Origin: Alphaproteobacteria bacterium
Lineage (GTDB): Bacteria; Pseudomonadota; Alphaproteobacteria; UBA9219; RFNS01
Length of the DNA: 64,000 nt
Direction: 5' to 3'
Assembly: GCA_016124955.1 (NCBI GenBank)
Contig: WGMR01000006.1
Coordinates: forward strand, 186,001-250,000
Below the pieces are notes generated by a model. The model was not told the DNA's origin and searched no databases. It was given only the letters and a program-made list of their open reading frames with translations. Shown one piece after another: positions 4,289 through 61,208 of the stretch; within the stretch, counting starts at the first letter, position 1; every line of letters starts with the position of its first letter. The translations under genes and the position numbers were made by a program.

Positions 4289-5644
4289 ATGTCGATCACC
4301 GCCCCACGCACCCCCGCCGGAACAATGGAACTGCTGCCGCGCGAGCAGATGGCGTTCCAGCACATGCTCGATACCATCAGGCGCGGCTATGAACGTTTCG
4401 GGTTCGTGCCCGTTGAAACACCGGCGTTCGAGATCAAGGATGTGCTGCTCACCAAATCGGGCGGCGAAACCGAAAAGCAGGTTTACTTCGTGCAATCTTC
4501 GGGCGCGCGCGAACAGGGGCACGATATCGATCTCGCGCTGCGTTTCGATCTGACGGTGCCGCTGGCGCGCTATGTGGCGGAGCACGAGCGCGAACTCGCC
4601 TTCCCGTTCCGCCGCTACCAGATCCAGCGCGTCTATCGCGGCGAGCGCGCGCAGAAGGGCCGCTTCCGCGAATTCTACCAGTGCGATATCGACGTGATCG
4701 GCAAAGACAAGCTCGATCCCGTCTTCGATGCCGAAATGCCCGCGATCATTGCGCAGATATTCGAAGAGCTGCAGGTCGGCGATTTCACGATCAATTTCAG
4801 CAACCGCAAAATATTGCTCGGCCTTGCGGCGGCGCTGAATGTCCCGGCGGACAAGCAGGGTCTTGTGCTGCGCGAAATCGACAAGATCGACAAAATCGGC
4901 GCCGACAAAGTGCGCGAAGCGCTTGGCACGCTTGGCATGGCGGAAAAGGATGCCGCGCGCATGCTGCGGCTCGTCGCGCTGAAAGGCAGCAAGCAAGATA
5001 TCGTCGCCGCGCTGCAGGCCGAGAAAATTGACAACCCGCTGTTCAAGGAAGGCTTCGATGAACTGACGGCCGTCGTCGCCGCTCTCGTGGCCTTGGGTGT
5101 GCCGGAAGAACGCGCGCGCCTCAACCTCGCGATCGCGCGCGGGCTCGATTACTATACCGGCACGGTCTATGAAACCTTTCTGGCGGACGCGCCACAGCTG
5201 GGCAGCGTATGTTCGGGCGGGCGCTATGAAAACCTCGCCAGCCACTACACGAAATCAAGCCTGCCCGGCGTCGGCATCTCGATCGGCGCGACGCGCCTGT
5301 TCGACCATTTGCGCGGCAACGGCTGGCGCGGGCTCGGCGCCAGCAATCTGCAGGTGCTTGTCGCGAACCTCGATCCCGCGCTGCGTGCCGATTACCTCGC
5401 GCTGGCCACGCAGCTGCGGCGCGCAGGCATCAACACCGAAGTTTATCTCGAAGCCGCCAAGCTCGACAAACAAATGAAATACGCCAGCCGCACCGGCGTG
5501 CCATATTGCATTTTGCTTGGCAGCGAAGAAAAGCAGCGCGGCATTGTCACGGTCAAGGATCTGGACGCCAAGCAGCAAGGCGACGTGCCTGCGGCAGACC
5601 TGCCGGCGCATATGGCGAAACTTCTGCAAGCGCGGGCGGGCTAG
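4289..5644 (+). CDS. hisS: Histidyl-tRNA synthetase
   Basis: About 451 residues from the ATG at 4289; an in-frame TTG at 4268 would add seven. It charges tRNA-His in the cytosol. Motif 2 reads [19 protein letters not shown] followed by [13 protein letters not shown], and the HisA-box region reads [11 protein letters not shown]. These spellings ([22 protein letters not shown]) look more like the archaeal/eukaryotic-type HisRS than E. coli's HERPQKGRYRQFHQ and YYNRTVFE. Some alphaproteobacteria are known to use such a variant HisRS together with tRNA-His lacking G-1. The gene is followed after 5 bp by the penicillin-binding protein gene. Confidence 0.93.
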
Positions 5645-5649
5645 GCGCG

Positions 5650-8600
5650 ATGCGTTCAATCAAACCCATATGGCTGCTGGTCATTCTGATGTTCATCAGC
5701 GGGATCGTCGCCGTCTGCATCTGGGCGGGCGAAGAAATGCGCAGCTCCCGCCTGCAGGCGCGCAACCTGTCACAAATGGCCGGATCCATGACGGTTGCGG
5801 TCGAAGATGGGCCGCAGCAATCCGCCTGGTTCCCAACCTACGGCCCCTATAACCAGCGGCTTGGCTATACCTACCTGCCTTACTTCATCAAGGCGCTGCG
5901 CGGCAGCAATTATGAAGTGAATGCACAGGCGCAGCCTTCCAAGGAATTTATGCGCTTCGTGCATTTCGGCGGCTTCCCGATTTACCGCGCCAAGACCACC
6001 GCCGGGCTTGCCATCTATGATCGCAACGGCGCGGCGCTGCACAGCATGCGCTACCCCACGCGCACCTTCGATAATTTCGACGCCATCCCGCCGGTGCTGA
6101 CCGGCACGCTTCTGTTCATCGAAAACCGCGAGCTGCTTGACCCCGATGCGTCGCCCACGCGTAACCCGGCGATCGAATGGGACCGTTTCATGCTGGCCGG
6201 GTTTGGCCACATCCTTGGCCTGTTCGTGCCCAGCGTCAACACCGGCGGCGGCAGCACGCTTGCGACGCAGATTGAAAAGTTCCGTTTTTCACCCGAAGGC
6301 CAGACATCAAGCGCGCGCGAAAAGATCAAGCAGATCATCTCCGCCAGCATGCGCGCCTATATGGACGGGCCCGATACTACCGGCACGCGCCGGCAAATCG
6401 TGCTGGACTATCTGAACGCCACGCCGCTTTCCGCCCGCGCGGGCTGGGGAGAAATCAACGGCGTGGGCGACGGGTTGTGGGCATGGTTCGGGCGCGAATT
6501 GCACGACACCAGCGCGCAACTGAACTTCGATGAAGATGACCGGGATTTGCTACGCGTCAAAGCGCAAGCCTACCGCCATGTGCTGGCGCTTATCCTTGCG
6601 CAGCGGCGGCCATCCTATTATCTGGCCACCAACCGCGGCGAGCTTGAGCAATTGATCGATATCACGCTCACGCAGCTCGCCCAGGCGGGCGTGATCACGG
6701 CCAAGCTGCGCGATGCGGCGGCGAAGGAAAAGCTTTTGTTCCTTGCCGCGCCGCCGCCGGTACCCGGCTATTCCTTTGTCGCACAAAAGGCCGTCAGCGC
6801 GGTGCGCATGCATTTGTTAAATCTTTTCGGCATCAAGAGCCTGTACGAGCTCGATCGCTTTGACATGCGCGCTTCCACAACGCTCGATATGCCGGTGCAG
6901 GAAAAAGTGACCGATTTCCTGCAAAAGCTGAAAGACCCGGATTTTCTCAAGGAAGCCGGGCTGCAGGGCTTCCGCCTGCTGGGTGAAAACAGTGACCCGA
7001 CCAAAATCAACTGGACCATCGTGCTGTATGAAAAAGGCGAAGGCGGCAACGAGGTGCGCGTACAGGCCGATAATCTCGATCAGCCGCTCGATCTGAATGA
7101 AGGCGCCAAGCTCGATCTCGGTTCCACCGCAAAGCTGCGGACCATGATCACCTATCTCGAAATTCTCAGCGAATTGCACAAGCGCTTTGCCGCCTTCGAC
7201 GACGACGCGCTGGCCGAGGTGACAGAAGACGCGCCGGATGCGCTGACCAAATGGACGATCACATGGCTGCGCGAACACAAGGACCGCAACCTTCAAGCCA
7301 TGCTGGATGACGCGATCCAGCGCAGCTATTCCGCCAACCCGCGCGAAACTTTCTATACCGGCGGCGGCGTGCATCGCTTCAACAATTTCGACCATAAGGA
7401 CGATCACAGGATCGTCCCGCTTGCGGAAGCCTTCCGCCATTCGATCAACCTGCCCTTCATCCGGCTGATGCGCGATATCGTCAATTACACGATCGCGCAG
7501 GGCCCGGAGCGCAAACAGGTCATACTTGGTGACCCGGATTACCCGGCGCGGCAGGAATATCTTGAACGCTTCGCCGATCAGGAAGGCAGCGTCTTTCTCA
7601 ATCGCTACTTCGTCGAATACAGCAAGCTGGACGAGGAAGAGTCGTTCGAGCGGCTGATCAAACGCAGCCGCAAAAGCATGACGGCGCTGACGACCGTTTA
7701 CCGTTCGGTCTATCCCGAACAGCCCGCGAGCGCGCTGGCGGAATTTCTGCGCGAACGCGTGCCGGGCCGCCGGCTGAGCGACGAACAGGTCGCGCGCTAT
7801 TACGTCAGCTACGGCACCGACGCCTATAACCTTGCTGACCGCGGTTATATCGCGGGCGTGCACCCGCTTGAACTTTGGCTGGTCGGATGGTTGCGCGAAA
7901 ACCGTGGCGTGGCGCGGCGCGACATGCTGAAGGCCAGCCGCGACCAGCGCTTGCAAACCTATAGCTGGCTTTTCCGCACGCGCCATAAATCGGCGCAAGA
8001 CAACCGCATCCGCATTTTGCTCGAACAGGATGCCTTCGATACCATCCAGCAGCGTTGGGCCCGGCTCGGTTATCCGTTCGGGCGGCTGGTGCCGAGCCTC
8101 GCGACCGCGATCGGCAGCTCGGCCGACAAGCCGGGCGCGCTGGCCGAACTGATGGGCATCATCGTCAATGACGGCGTAAAGCTGCCGACCGTACGGTTGA
8201 AATCGGTCGAATTCGCGCCGGGCACGCCCTACCAAACCGCCATGACCCGCAAAGACCGACCGGGCGAAAAGGTTTTGCCGCATGAGGTTGTTGCCACCGT
8301 GCGCACGGCGTTGATGGATGTGGTTGCGAACGGCACCGCGCGCCGCGTTTCCGGCGTGTTCAAGGATGCGGCGGGTAATTTGCTGCCCGTCGGCGGCAAA
8401 ACCGGCACGGGCGATCATCGCTTCGATGAATTCGCGCCCGGCGGACGGCTGATATCGTCGCGCGTCGTTAAACGCACGGCCACCCTCGTTTTCTTCATCG
8501 ACGACCGCCTGTTCGGCAGCATCACGGCCTATGTGGCCGGGCCCGACGCCGCAAAATACAGCTTCACAAGCGCCTTGCCAGCTCAGATGCTGACGGCGAT

Positions 8601-57470: not shown

Positions 57471-58991
57471 TTACTTGACGCTCTTGAGCCGTGGCGGAGC
57501 CTGAACCGACAAGGCGCCGGTATAGCTGCCGTCGGTCACAAGCACGTTCGAGAACTGCCACGGGTCGCTGGTATCGACATCTTCCGAGAACAGCTCGTTG
57601 CGGTGCTTGAGCGGCGTCCAATCCGTATAGACGCCGATAACCGGGCCAAGATAGGGCATCTGCACCTCAAGGCAGCGGCGGAAATCGATCTCGTCGGCGT
57701 CGATGATACCCTTTTCCGGGTTTTCAAGCGCCCAGGTCATGCCCGCAATGATCGCGGAAGTCACCTGCAGCCCGGTCGCGTTCTGATGGGGCGCAAGGCG
57801 GCGGGTTTCCTCGATCGACAGCTGTGAGCCGTACCAATAGGCGTTCTTGGCGTGGCCGAACAGCAGCACACCCAGCTCGTCGATGCCGTCCTCGATCTCG
57901 TTCTCGTCCAGGATCTTCCACGGCGTTTCCTTAAGCCATTCGGTCGTCGCGGTCTGTGCCTTCCAGCCGCCGCCCGCAACTTCGTGGATCGAAAGCACGG
58001 CGTCGTCGCAGGGATGGTAGGCATAGTGCACCGTGGGGCGGTACACGACCTTATCCCCCTGCCGTACCGTGAAGAAATCGGCGATCGAGATGGATTCGTT
58101 GTGCGTCACAAGGAACCCGTGCTGCGCCTGCGCCGTCGGCGTCCAGCTGCGCACACGCGTGCCGATGCCGGGCTGGGTCATATAGATCGCGGCATCGCAG
58201 CCGGTTTCATGCCGCCGCCCGGTCGCGGGCATGGTCTTTTCGTGTGTACCCCAGCCAAGCTCGGCCGGCTGCAGGCCTTCGGAAATAAAGCCATCGACCG
58301 ACCACGTATTGACGAAGTTGCCGATCACCTTCTGCGGGCTTTTGGCGCGCTGGGTGTCGCGTTCGGCGATATGAATGCCCTTGACGCCGGCACGCTGCAT
58401 CAGCGCCGCCCATTCTTCGCGCGTCTTCGGCTCCGTGTAATCGAGCTTCAGGTCGTTTGCGATATTCAGCAACGCCTGCTTGGCGAACCACGAAACCATG
58501 CCGGGGTTGGCGCCGCAGCAGCTGATCGCGGTCGGGCCGCCGGGCTTTCTGCGCCGCAATTCAAGCAGTTCCTCGCGCAGCACATAATTGGTGCGCGCCG
58601 CCAGCGGCGCGTTGGTGTCGGTATAGAAACCGAGCCACGGTTCGACCACCGTATCGATATAAAGCGCCTTATGTTCGGTGCAGAAAGTGATCATATCGAC
58701 CGAAGAAACATCGACCGACACGTTCACAAGGAAGGGCCTGCCCGGACCCTTGAAATAGGGGGTTAGCAGTTCGCGGTAATTGTCCTTGGTAACGCCCGCT
58801 TTTTCAAACTTGATGCCTTCTTTTTCGGCCAGCTTGCGGTCCTTGTCGTTGGGAGCAATAACAACCATGCGCGAACGGTCGCATTCGAAATGCCGGAGAA
58901 TAAGCGGCAGGACGCCCCTTCCGATTGAGCCGAAGCCAAGGATGATAACGGGGCCATCGATTTTCCCGTAGACGGGCCATTTCTGTGTCAA
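57471..58991 (-). CDS. hss: Homospermidine synthase
   Basis: 506 residues from TTG 58989-58991, which has AGGAG 7 nt upstream; no ATG fits as well. The NAD-binding motif IILGFGSIGRGVLPLI opens the protein, followed by NVSVDVSSVDMI, SCCGANPGMVSWFA, TWSVDGFISEGLQPAELGW and YHPCDDAVLSIHEVAGGG. It condenses two putrescines to sym-homospermidine, the characteristic polyamine of many alphaproteobacteria. The gene lies 110 bp downstream of the ornithine decarboxylase gene, which supplies putrescine, so they form a two-gene pathway. Confidence 0.93.
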   Translation of the reverse strand: MTQKWPVYGKIDGPVIILGFGSIGRGVLPLILRHFECDRSRMVVIAPNDKDRKLAEKEGIKFEKAGVTKDNYRELLTPYFKGPGRPFLVNVSVDVSSVDMITFCTEHKALYIDTVVEPWLGFYTDTNAPLAARTNYVLREELLELRRRKPGGPTAISCCGANPGMVSWFAKQALLNIANDLKLDYTEPKTREEWAALMQRAGVKGIHIAERDTQRAKSPQKVIGNFVNTWSVDGFISEGLQPAELGWGTHEKTMPATGRRHETGCDAAIYMTQPGIGTRVRSWTPTAQAQHGFLVTHNESISIADFFTVRQGDKVVYRPTVHYAYHPCDDAVLSIHEVAGGGWKAQTATTEWLKETPWKILDENEIEDGIDELGVLLFGHAKNAYWYGSQLSIEETRRLAPHQNATGLQVTSAIIAGMTWALENPEKGIIDADEIDFRRCLEVQMPYLGPVIGVYTDWTPLKHRNELFSEDVDTSDPWQFSNVLVTDGSYTGALSVQAPPRLKSVK

Positions 58992-59101
58992 TGTACGTCT
59001 CCTGCTTGGGGTTGCAGGCCCAATAAACCAGCACGAACTATATGATGACAAGCATTATCTGCCGCCGCGGACGCAGCATGCCTGGTTAAAACCGCAAAAA
59101 A

Positions 59102-60349
59102 TCAGATAAAATAGGTCGCGAGCGGCGCAAAACCGTTGAAACCGACCGACGCATAGGTAGTTGTGTAGGCGCCGGTGGCCTCGATCAGCACTTCATCCCC
59201 GATCTCAAGCGACACGGAGAGCGGGTACATGTTCTTTTCATAGAGAACGTCAACCGAATCGCAGGTCGGGCCCGCGATCACGCACGGCGTCTTTTCACCA
59301 TCGTCACGCGAGGTCGTGATCGGGTAGCGGATCGATTCGTCCATGGTTTCGGCAAGGCCGCCGAACTTGCCGATATCGAGGTAAACCCAGCGCACAGGGT
59401 CGTCCGCCGCCTTGCGCGAAATCAGCACAACTTCGGCCTTGATGATGCCGGCATCGCCGACCATGCCGCGGCCGGGCTCAATCACGGTTTCGGGGATCTG
59501 GTTGCCGAAATAGCGGCGCAGCGCGCCGAAAATGGCGGTGCCGTAGCTCTTCATGCCCGGCACGTCTTTCAGATACTTGGCCGGGAAGCCGCCGCCCATA
59601 TTCACCATCGTCAGCTTGATGCCGCGTTCGCCCAGCGCGCGGAAAATTTCCGCCGTGGTTTTCAGCGAGCGGTCCCAAGCCTTCAGGTTGGCCTGCTGCG
59701 AGCCGACATGGAACGAAATGCCGTGTGGCACGAGCCCGAGACGCTGCGCGGTTTCAAGAACCTCGATCGCCATGTCGGGCACGCAGCCGAACTTGCGGCT
59801 AAGCGGCCATTCGGCGCCGTCGTTATCGACAAGGATGCGGCAGAATACGCGCGCGCCGGGGGCGGCGCGGGCAACTTTTTCAACCTCTTCCACGCTGTCC
59901 ACCGCGAACAGGTCGATGCCGTATTCGTGGGCGCGGGCAATATCGCGCCCCTTCTTGATCGTGTTGCCGTATGAAATGCGGTCGGGCGTGGCGCCGGCTT
60001 CGAGCGCCATTTCGATTTCCGCCAGCGAGGCGGCATCGAAGCTGGAGCCGAGCGAGGCGAGCAGGCGCAGGATTTCAGCCGCCGGGTTGGCCTTGACGGC
60101 GTAATAAATGCGCGAATCGGGCAGCGCCTTGGTGAAACCAAGATAGTTCTGGCGCACGGTTTCGAGATCGACAACCAGGCAAGGGCCTTCCGGCTTGCGG
60201 TTGGCAAGAAAATCGGTGATGCGCTGCTTCGCGTTCTTGGCACCCTTTTTCGAGGTGTAGGCGCGCGCAAGCGTGCTGGCGGCAACAACCGGCGTCAGCA
60301 GGTTGCCGTTGGCAAAAGAGGTATCCTTCATCAAAGGCATCTTACCCAT
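59102..60349 (-). CDS. Ornithine decarboxylase, alanine-racemase-fold (fold III)
   Basis: The protein has 415 residues from ATG 60349 (GGGAG site 8 nt upstream). PLP lysine is K86 in YYAVKANPAAEIL. Other motifs are VDNDGAEWPLSRKFG, SFHVGSQQ, MVNMGGGFPAKY, EPGRGMVGDAG and the active-site GPTCDSVDVLYEKN near the C-terminus. It decarboxylates ornithine to putrescine, and lysine use is possible. A 35-40-residue N-terminal extension precedes the typical start of the fold. Expression is probably controlled by the long structured leader upstream. Confidence 0.93.
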   Translation of the reverse strand: MGKMPLMKDTSFANGNLLTPVVAASTLARAYTSKKGAKNAKQRITDFLANRKPEGPCLVVDLETVRQNYLGFTKALPDSRIYYAVKANPAAEILRLLASLGSSFDAASLAEIEMALEAGATPDRISYGNTIKKGRDIARAHEYGIDLFAVDSVEEVEKVARAAPGARVFCRILVDNDGAEWPLSRKFGCVPDMAIEVLETAQRLGLVPHGISFHVGSQQANLKAWDRSLKTTAEIFRALGERGIKLTMVNMGGGFPAKYLKDVPGMKSYGTAIFGALRRYFGNQIPETVIEPGRGMVGDAGIIKAEVVLISRKAADDPVRWVYLDIGKFGGLAETMDESIRYPITTSRDDGEKTPCVIAGPTCDSVDVLYEKNMYPLSVSLEIGDEVLIEATGAYTTTYASVGFNGFAPLATYFI

Positions 60350-60865
60350 GCCCCGTACTCCCTGTTCAGGAGCCGCACCTTCGTAGGCCTATGCCGAATG
60401 TGTCCCAAAAGCGTTGCGGCGCCCCCATGCCTTACGCATTGGGGCGCGAGAACGGTCTTGCGTGGCTCTACCAAGCCACTTTCCGTTCCTTTACAACTTG
60501 TCTGGCGGTATCGCGCTTGCCTGCACTGTTGCAGTACGACCCGACCCCAGAACCCTTTCAGGTCCGGCAGCAGATTCATAAACCGTAAGGTTTGTGAACC
60601 GACCGCCTTCTTACTTTGCCATCAACTGCAAAGCCACACTCTTCATTGTCGGGCCCTAACTCACTTGGCCCTTGCCAACAAAAGGCAGACTCCTTGGTTG
60701 CATACCACCACTCCCGCCGGCCGGGAGGCCTTTGGGAGCGCAAAGCGTCGTTACATAAACCAACGTGGGGGACCTGCGGGTGGTATTCCGTTCGGTCCTT
60801 TTGGGGCCAGTGGCACGTGCGCTTCAATCACAGATTTAAGGTAAGAATTTTGAACATACAATTAA
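60350..60865 (-). ncRNA. Long structured leader of the ornithine decarboxylase gene (speF-like)
   Basis: About 500 nt upstream of the decarboxylase have no protein-like frame but many helices: GCGCCCC/GGGGCGC with ATGC/GCAT (60421-60450 region), CATAAACC/GGTTTGTG (60577-60596), CTGCA/TGCAG (60530-60545 region) and GTGGCT/AGCCAC (60460-60480 region). A speF RNA motif of about this length is known upstream of ornithine decarboxylase genes in alphaproteobacteria. The assignment rests on position, size and dense pairing; the consensus was not compared. Confidence 0.6.
60656..60703 (-). CDS. Putative 15-codon leader peptide inside the decarboxylase leader
   Basis: The frame reads MQPRSLPFVGKGQVS, starting at ATG 60703 with GGGAG 10 nt upstream, about 300 nt before the decarboxylase start. 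Translation of a leader peptide controls the E. coli speF operon in response to ornithine; this peptide is unrelated in sequence to SpeFL. A chance ORF of this size is quite possible. Confidence 0.3.
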   Translation of the reverse strand: MQPRSLPFVGKGQVS

Positions 60866-61208
60866 TTTTTTGACCCGAAGGGCAAAAAAACGCGCGAAGA
60901 GTCTGGAAGAGTCACATAGAGAGCACAGTTTTCGCGCCGCGCACGCCGCGCGAAGCTTGTATGTGCCGCCAAAAACTTCTCGCGATGCCGCAAGCACGCG
61001 CCGCTGCGCGGCGGCGCAAAAAATGGGGCGGCAATTTCCCGCCACGGCACGCCGGATCGGGCCGCCTGCAAGCGGCGCGAAAAGACTTTGCACCCCAAGG
61101 ACTTACCCTGAAAGACGGCTTGACTCGCTTCGCCCCCTTTGGCAACCTTTGCAAGATCAAGCGGGCGACTCGTCAAGAAAAGCCCGGTCCCAAGGAGCGA
61201 ACAAGCCC
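60866..61208. other. Intergenic region before ihfB with hairpins, no gene supported
   Basis: The region starts with a T6/A7-flanked stem (CCC-GAA-GGG, 60866-60890), which reads as a weak terminator in both directions. Next come the GC-rich palindromes GCGCCGC-TGC-GCGGCG (near 60989-61016) and GGCCGC/GCGGC (near 61060-61076). The ihfB frame is open back to 60870, but that extension is Arg/Ala-rich and not IHF-like. Promoters for the decarboxylase leader (minus) and ihfB (plus) should lie here; I could not place them. Confidence 0.45.

Follow-up and report, generated by a model that had tools for sequence, protein, structure and literature searches.

What does the long leader in front of an alphaproteobacterial ornithine decarboxylase (ODC) gene control, and by what step? 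In the window, the whole 64,000-nucleotide stretch of DNA that was analysed, ~480 nt of leader (minus strand, ~60832-60350) lie upstream of ODC, and homospermidine synthase (HSS) follows closely downstream on the same strand. The first-pass annotation had read this region as a helix-rich leader of the speF kind, with a short ORF that might encode a leader peptide, placed so as to set the whole homospermidine pathway. The two enzymes were as it named them, both being supported by Pfam and by solved structures: the best PDB match of ODC is the lysine/ornithine decarboxylase 5gjm, and HSS scores 753 bits against homospermidine synthase 4plp. Compared with other alphaproteobacterial ODCs, this one is extended at the N-terminus by ~40 residues, and an 82-codon ORF (60579-60331) overlaps the start of its gene. 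The genes and translation signals are:

57471-59051, minus strand: homospermidine synthase (Pfam and solved-structure match)
59102-60349, minus strand: ornithine decarboxylase, fold III, PF02784/PF00278 (Pfam Orn_Arg_deC_N and PDB match)
60358-60372, minus strand: CUCCUGAACAGGGAG hairpin with the ODC ribosome site AGGGAG (sequence and fold of 60340-60400)
60703-60656, minus strand: 15-codon leader ORF, ATGCAACCAAGG...TAG, translation MQPRSLPFVGKGQVS, with GGGAG 7 nt upstream

The leader (~500 nt) was predicted to fold at -209 kcal/mol (z = -4.2), as low as none of 100 shuffles, which bears out the long helix-rich leader; short segments of it folded no better than shuffles, and the stretch 60340-60400 with the ODC ribosome-site hairpin was not beyond shuffle stability (z -0.63). 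The 15-codon ORF with its ribosome site was also borne out, and ODC starts 307 nt past its stop. A candidate promoter picked by eye (TTGTAT-16 nt-TTAAAT) lies ahead of the leader; a strict promoter scan found none. An inverted repeat, TTTTTTGACCCGAAGGGCAAAAAA, is present just 5' of the proposed promoter (window 60865-60890). Only the 5' part of the leader is kept in relatives: a DNA search recovered leader positions ~33-125 in 21 of 59 genomes.

Assignment to speF was examined with the Rfam covariance models. RF00518 (speF; gathering cut-off 37 bits) gave no match in the window at the gathering threshold or at E<=10, and none in 59 relatives, while as a positive control the same model matched 8 of 240 class genomes; membership of the window leader in RF00518 was therefore ruled out on score. 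RF02347 (ar45; cut-off 40 bits) also had no window match at E<=10, its best match in the window's own genome being at an unrelated place with 14.9 bits, and membership was likewise ruled out on score. Above its cut-off, ar45 was found in 8/240 class genomes, exactly the 8 speF-positive ones, and in all eight (L028-L035) the ar45 match ended ~8 nt 5' of the speF match. Since the two co-occur adjacently in every positive genome, Rfam speF and ar45 are adjoining pieces of one ODC leader. Their adjacency agrees with the extended speF element, a 5' stem followed by a ~80-nt block (Corbino et al., 2005; PMC1273637). A COG0019-type ODC lies downstream of the window leader, as expected of the RF00518 position, and its nearest orthologues (67-75% identity) are ODCs behind Rfam-speF leaders. 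The proposed likeness to speF thus stood in the ODC position, the similar leader length and a homologous 5' domain (the ar45 half of extended speF), but not in an RF00518 match.

The homology of the 5' domain was seen with models built across orders. Upstream regions of further alphaproteobacterial ODC genes carry both of its strands, GCACGUGCC..GGCCC and GGUUAUGCAACGACG, placed ~10-20 nt 3' of a -10-like box. Covariance model R1, made from 26 leaders of other alphaproteobacterial orders with the window's order excluded, had a single match in the 64 kb window (33.7 bits, E=7.8e-8); in the whole genome the window leader came top (E=2.4e-6; runner-up 0.58), and 26/26 loci of the window's order were matched. 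Model R2, built from the window's order, matched 18 class loci at the same place and, within the order, a compact form in family f2, directly 5' of the decarboxylase. By sequence comparison, the first ~100 nt of the leader share ancestry with the 5' half of the extended speF element, which is ar45 in Rfam. The R1 element was present in 79 of 385 alphaproteobacterial genomes, against 8/240 for each Rfam family. All 12 positive genomes of a phylum-wide sample, the make-up of which is only partly listed, were Alphaproteobacteria, and viral contigs searched with the core pattern gave no match. Shorter look-alike ODC leaders in L072 and L086 (CCACGUGCC..GGUAACGAGGUAACGGUGCG), missed by the regular pattern, are possibly another branch or the odc1 motif. 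The best reading of these results is that the window leader is a diverged version of the orphan speF/ar45 element, the order-specific form of a class-wide one.

The elements of the 5' domain and of the start region, all on the minus strand, are:

60732-60832, minus strand: 5' domain, class-wide polyamine-gene leader element, a relative of ar45 (5' half of extended speF) (model R1)
60824-60820/60747-60743, minus strand: P1, AAGCG/CGCUU (alignments A1, A4)
60817-60813/60754-60749, minus strand: core helix, CGUGC/GU(A)ACG (alignments A1, A4)
60808-60805/60761-60758, minus strand: P2, GGCC/GGUU (alignments A1, A4)
60770-60798, minus strand: P3 hairpin, GGACC/GGUCC, with loop AUACCACC at 60786-60779 (separate fold prediction)
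60702-60786, minus strand: span of the proposed pseudoknot helix, loop AUACCACC (60786-60779) with GGUGGUAU (60709-60702) (covariation)
60711-60738, minus strand: hairpin predicted to sequester the leader-ORF SD, GGGAG (60715-60711) with CUCCC (60738-60734, or 60727-60723) (predicted fold)

P1, the core helix (CGURC/GY(A)ACG) and P2 were formed in 24/24 aligned loci of the window's order. Changes in core pairs include a double change from U-A to C-G in L002 and an A-U/G-U/G-C series at the adjoining pair. RNAalifold on the class alignment recovered almost nothing; the class core helix was placed by hand and then counted, and class-only covariation of the core is weak because the core hardly varies. 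The order's inserts, folded separately, gave a hairpin of variable stem sequence with AUACCA in or beside the apical loop. In this order the conserved loop AUACCAC is complementary to GUGGUAU in the leader-ORF start region (GUGGUAUG), and the proposed helix would cover the AU of the leader-ORF AUG. Across 24 loci 96.4% of its cells were paired, and two pairs had double changes (for example ACCAU/AUGGU in L008); loop and partner were both altered in L018, L026 and L027. For the whole structure, the count of doubly changed pairs was reached by 1 of 500 shuffles, a figure that is not a probability because related sequences share ancestry. The outermost loop/AUG pair was missing in 5 of the 24 loci, and the AUG was missing at that place in L012 and L015 and shifted in L008. 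The 50-nt stretch with the SD hairpin has a predicted stability of -21.5 kcal/mol. As read from the alignment, anti-SD/SD hairpins occur at the same place in class relatives, their sequences differing by lineage while complementarity stays. Pairing of the P3 loop with the leader-ORF start, with hairpins that would hide the ribosome sites, is supported by covariation, and the leader is apparently built to hide or expose the leader-ORF start signal.

Is the start or the encoded peptide the conserved feature of the leader ORF? The window AUG lies at +42 after the core, with its GGGAG. An SD plus AUG at +38..+90 after the core was found in 46/58 class loci (shuffle mean 3.2, max 8) and in 13/27 loci of the order (shuffle mean 2.7, max 8). 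Leader ORFs of the order ranged from 6 to about 150 codons and shared nothing past MQ[QP]R, which itself overlaps paired RNA. Of the leader-ORF conservation that the first-pass annotation proposed to check, the position of the start site was kept, while peptide and stop vary in the window's order; a conserved leader peptide was ruled out there by this variation in length and sequence, and its possible role as an arrest peptide is not supported. The start codon opens the enzyme itself in L084, L085, L111 and L119, and also in family f2 (L149-L151) of the window's order, with a long N-terminal extension; such decarboxylase extensions are long and variable in L084, L085 and L149-L151. Because the start begins the enzyme itself in some loci, control would act on the start rather than on any one peptide.

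The regulon was defined on 38 class loci chosen mainly as not already known to precede ODC. Two were cut by contig ends, and in 33 of the 36 usable loci the first downstream gene was a polyamine gene; the exceptions were L103, L115 (a weak match) and L137 (glutamine amidotransferase). Genes behind the element in class loci are ODC, a divergent fold-III decarboxylase (28-32% identical), HSS and SpeD, to which the window's order adds carboxynorspermidine synthase, a deoxyhypusine-synthase-like enzyme, SpeD and a putative agmatinase (called by eye). From these associations we conclude that the regulon is polyamine synthesis. In the genus-level group g11 (L021, L025/L041, L040, L052), the element precedes a DUF736-family protein rather than a polyamine enzyme (Pfam for L041; by similarity for L021, L025, L040 and L052). 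An elongation factor P-like gene, so called from the sequence reading only, lies downstream of the element's operon in L046 (about 5559-6122) and in L052. At other loci the element stands at the head of HSS-ODC operons, or immediately before HSS; as to the suggestion that the leader sets the whole homospermidine pathway, it is plausible that one leader serves ODC and HSS together.

The ODC and its leader have different distributions within the order. Among its 33 genomes this ODC type occurs in the window's alone (899 bits, against <=131 elsewhere), and in order relatives the same leader type is followed by a decarboxylase of ~30% identity. The window leader is the order's own type (77 bits with R2, the same as in sister genus G001), and sister genera carry this leader type ahead of non-orthologous decarboxylases. 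Replacement of the coding gene with retention of the leader appears to be the simplest reading of this distribution. If the leader was kept across such an exchange, the element would read the state of the pathway rather than one enzyme.

With a confidence a little above even, we favour polyamine feedback at the level of translation, with the 5' domain controlling whether the leader-ORF start is accessible. The 5' domain would begin at the transcription start and act in cis as a control RNA of polyamine synthesis. With plentiful polyamines, it would be held in a fold that hides the leader-ORF start, and the leader ORF, followed by ODC (and HSS), would be translated less; with scarce polyamines the start would open, the leader ORF would be translated and downstream expression would rise. 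The deciding event would be initiation at this start, not the peptide made from it. At the level of sequence, this proposal stands on established features: the element's homology, position and gene associations, its conserved core helix, and the SD and AUG conserved downstream. Speaking against it are the 307 nt between the leader-ORF stop and the ODC start, the loci in which the outermost loop/AUG pair or the AUG itself is missing or shifted, and the shuffle-level stability of short segments.

How polyamines would be sensed admits several answers. Direct binding is the leading one, although we hold it only tentatively and below an even chance: the 5' domain may be a metabolite riboswitch, its aptamer recognizing a polyamine such as homospermidine and controlling start-site access. 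The core is small and strongly conserved, with near-invariant unpaired bases, the 5' domain shrinks to about 62 nt in its smallest forms (compact L064 and L074), and the regulon consists only of polyamine genes, HSS and SpeD among them. Against this, six pathway metabolites tested on the A. tumefaciens speF RNA showed no binding (Corbino et al., 2005; PMC1273637), although homospermidine was not one of the compounds listed; the element could also just as well be read by the ribosome or by a protein that binds RNA. Sensing by the leader peptide, with the nascent chain stalling on ornithine or a polyamine as in gammaproteobacterial SpeFL, is quite improbable. Some other alphaproteobacterial leader ORFs do end alike (GRKNPLSS[MI], SSM, TSI), and the GRKNPLSS stretch changes mainly at the third codon position (18 vs 6 and 2), a coding signature at the peptide end seen only in a small group outside the window's order (L064, L073, L083). 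However, a 14-codon candidate peptide before HSS had no third-position excess, and the variable ORFs of the window's order, described above, also speak against stalling. Leader ORFs of L064, L070, L071, L074, L080, L083, L088 and L060 often end near [ST]S[MI], written AGU-AU, which may be a peptide or an RNA constraint.

Control could instead act on transcription, the 5' domain, or Rho acting where the leader ORF is left untranslated, stopping the polymerase before ODC, so that the ar45 'sRNA' is the stopped transcript. GGGCUUUUUU follows P1 in the ar45 branch, and in Bartonella ar45 was detected separately from the speF leader immediately 3' of it; a premature stop is plausible in that branch. 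In the window there is no U-run after P1 and no intrinsic terminator or terminator-like site on the minus strand of the leader, and we consider attenuation unlikely here. It is very improbable that the 5' domain is a separate gene for a trans-acting sRNA (ar45 sense) that stands before ODC by chance: ar45 has been described as an independently expressed, Hfq-bound sRNA, but the element keeps its place and its orientation ahead of many different polyamine genes, and its spacing to the ribosome site and AUG is conserved. Feedback on initiation at the leader-ORF start remains our preferred reading.

More broadly, speF, ar45 and the window leader may be branches of one ancient alphaproteobacterial polyamine sensor over ODC, HSS, SpeD, carboxynorspermidine-pathway and deoxyhypusine-synthase-like genes. 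Such a sensor would act by making accessible, or not, a start codon that lies ~40-70 nt downstream and with which, in the window's order, its own loop would pair. Its ligand would be a triamine, for example homospermidine, that is missing from the reported binding tests; taken whole, this is a speculative proposal that we rate as rather unlikely. No description of the loop/AUG pairing, of the extended regulon, or of ar45 and speF joined with each other and with a wider family was found in the literature examined; the 2018 work of Greenlee et al., which reportedly updated the speF consensus, and that on odc1 may cover parts. That one leader contains both speF and ar45, the 5' piece being the widespread one and also present before HSS and SpeD, shifts which RNA and which ligands to test. 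The compact ~62-nt forms would serve as small constructs for binding assays, and the loop/AUG pairing of the order offers a precise mutational test.

Among known leaders, speF has counted as an orphan, lacking a ligand, since 2005. The window leader shares with extended speF (PMC1273637) and RF00518 the ODC neighbourhood, the leader length, the homologous 5' domain, conservation from near the transcription start and a stem with a large insertion; it lacks the ~150-position RF00518 block, and its downstream part differs in having the P3 loop/AUG pairing and the SD hairpin. With RF02347 it has in common the core strands GCACGU[GA]CC and G[CU]AACGACG and their pairing, but it scores below the cut-off, is apparently part of an mRNA leader, and continues after P1 with CUUUGCGCUCCC in place of the U-run of the ar45 branch. 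The odc1 motif (uORF-25-1; PMC8632094), compared by its description only, is also an alphaproteobacterial ODC leader with a short uORF, an SD in a stem and a pseudoknot; as described, it has two UUG starts 2 nt apart and a constant 11-residue uORF, whereas in the window both starts are AUG, 354 nt from each other, and the short ORF has 15 codons. No UUG..UUG arrangement at the ODC start was found in the sampled element-negative leaders. The enterobacterial SpeF decarboxylase has a different fold from the window ODC. The SpeFL-speF system is alike in placing a short leader ORF before an ornithine decarboxylase; in the window's order, in place of a conserved peptide and stop, it is the RNA domain that is conserved.
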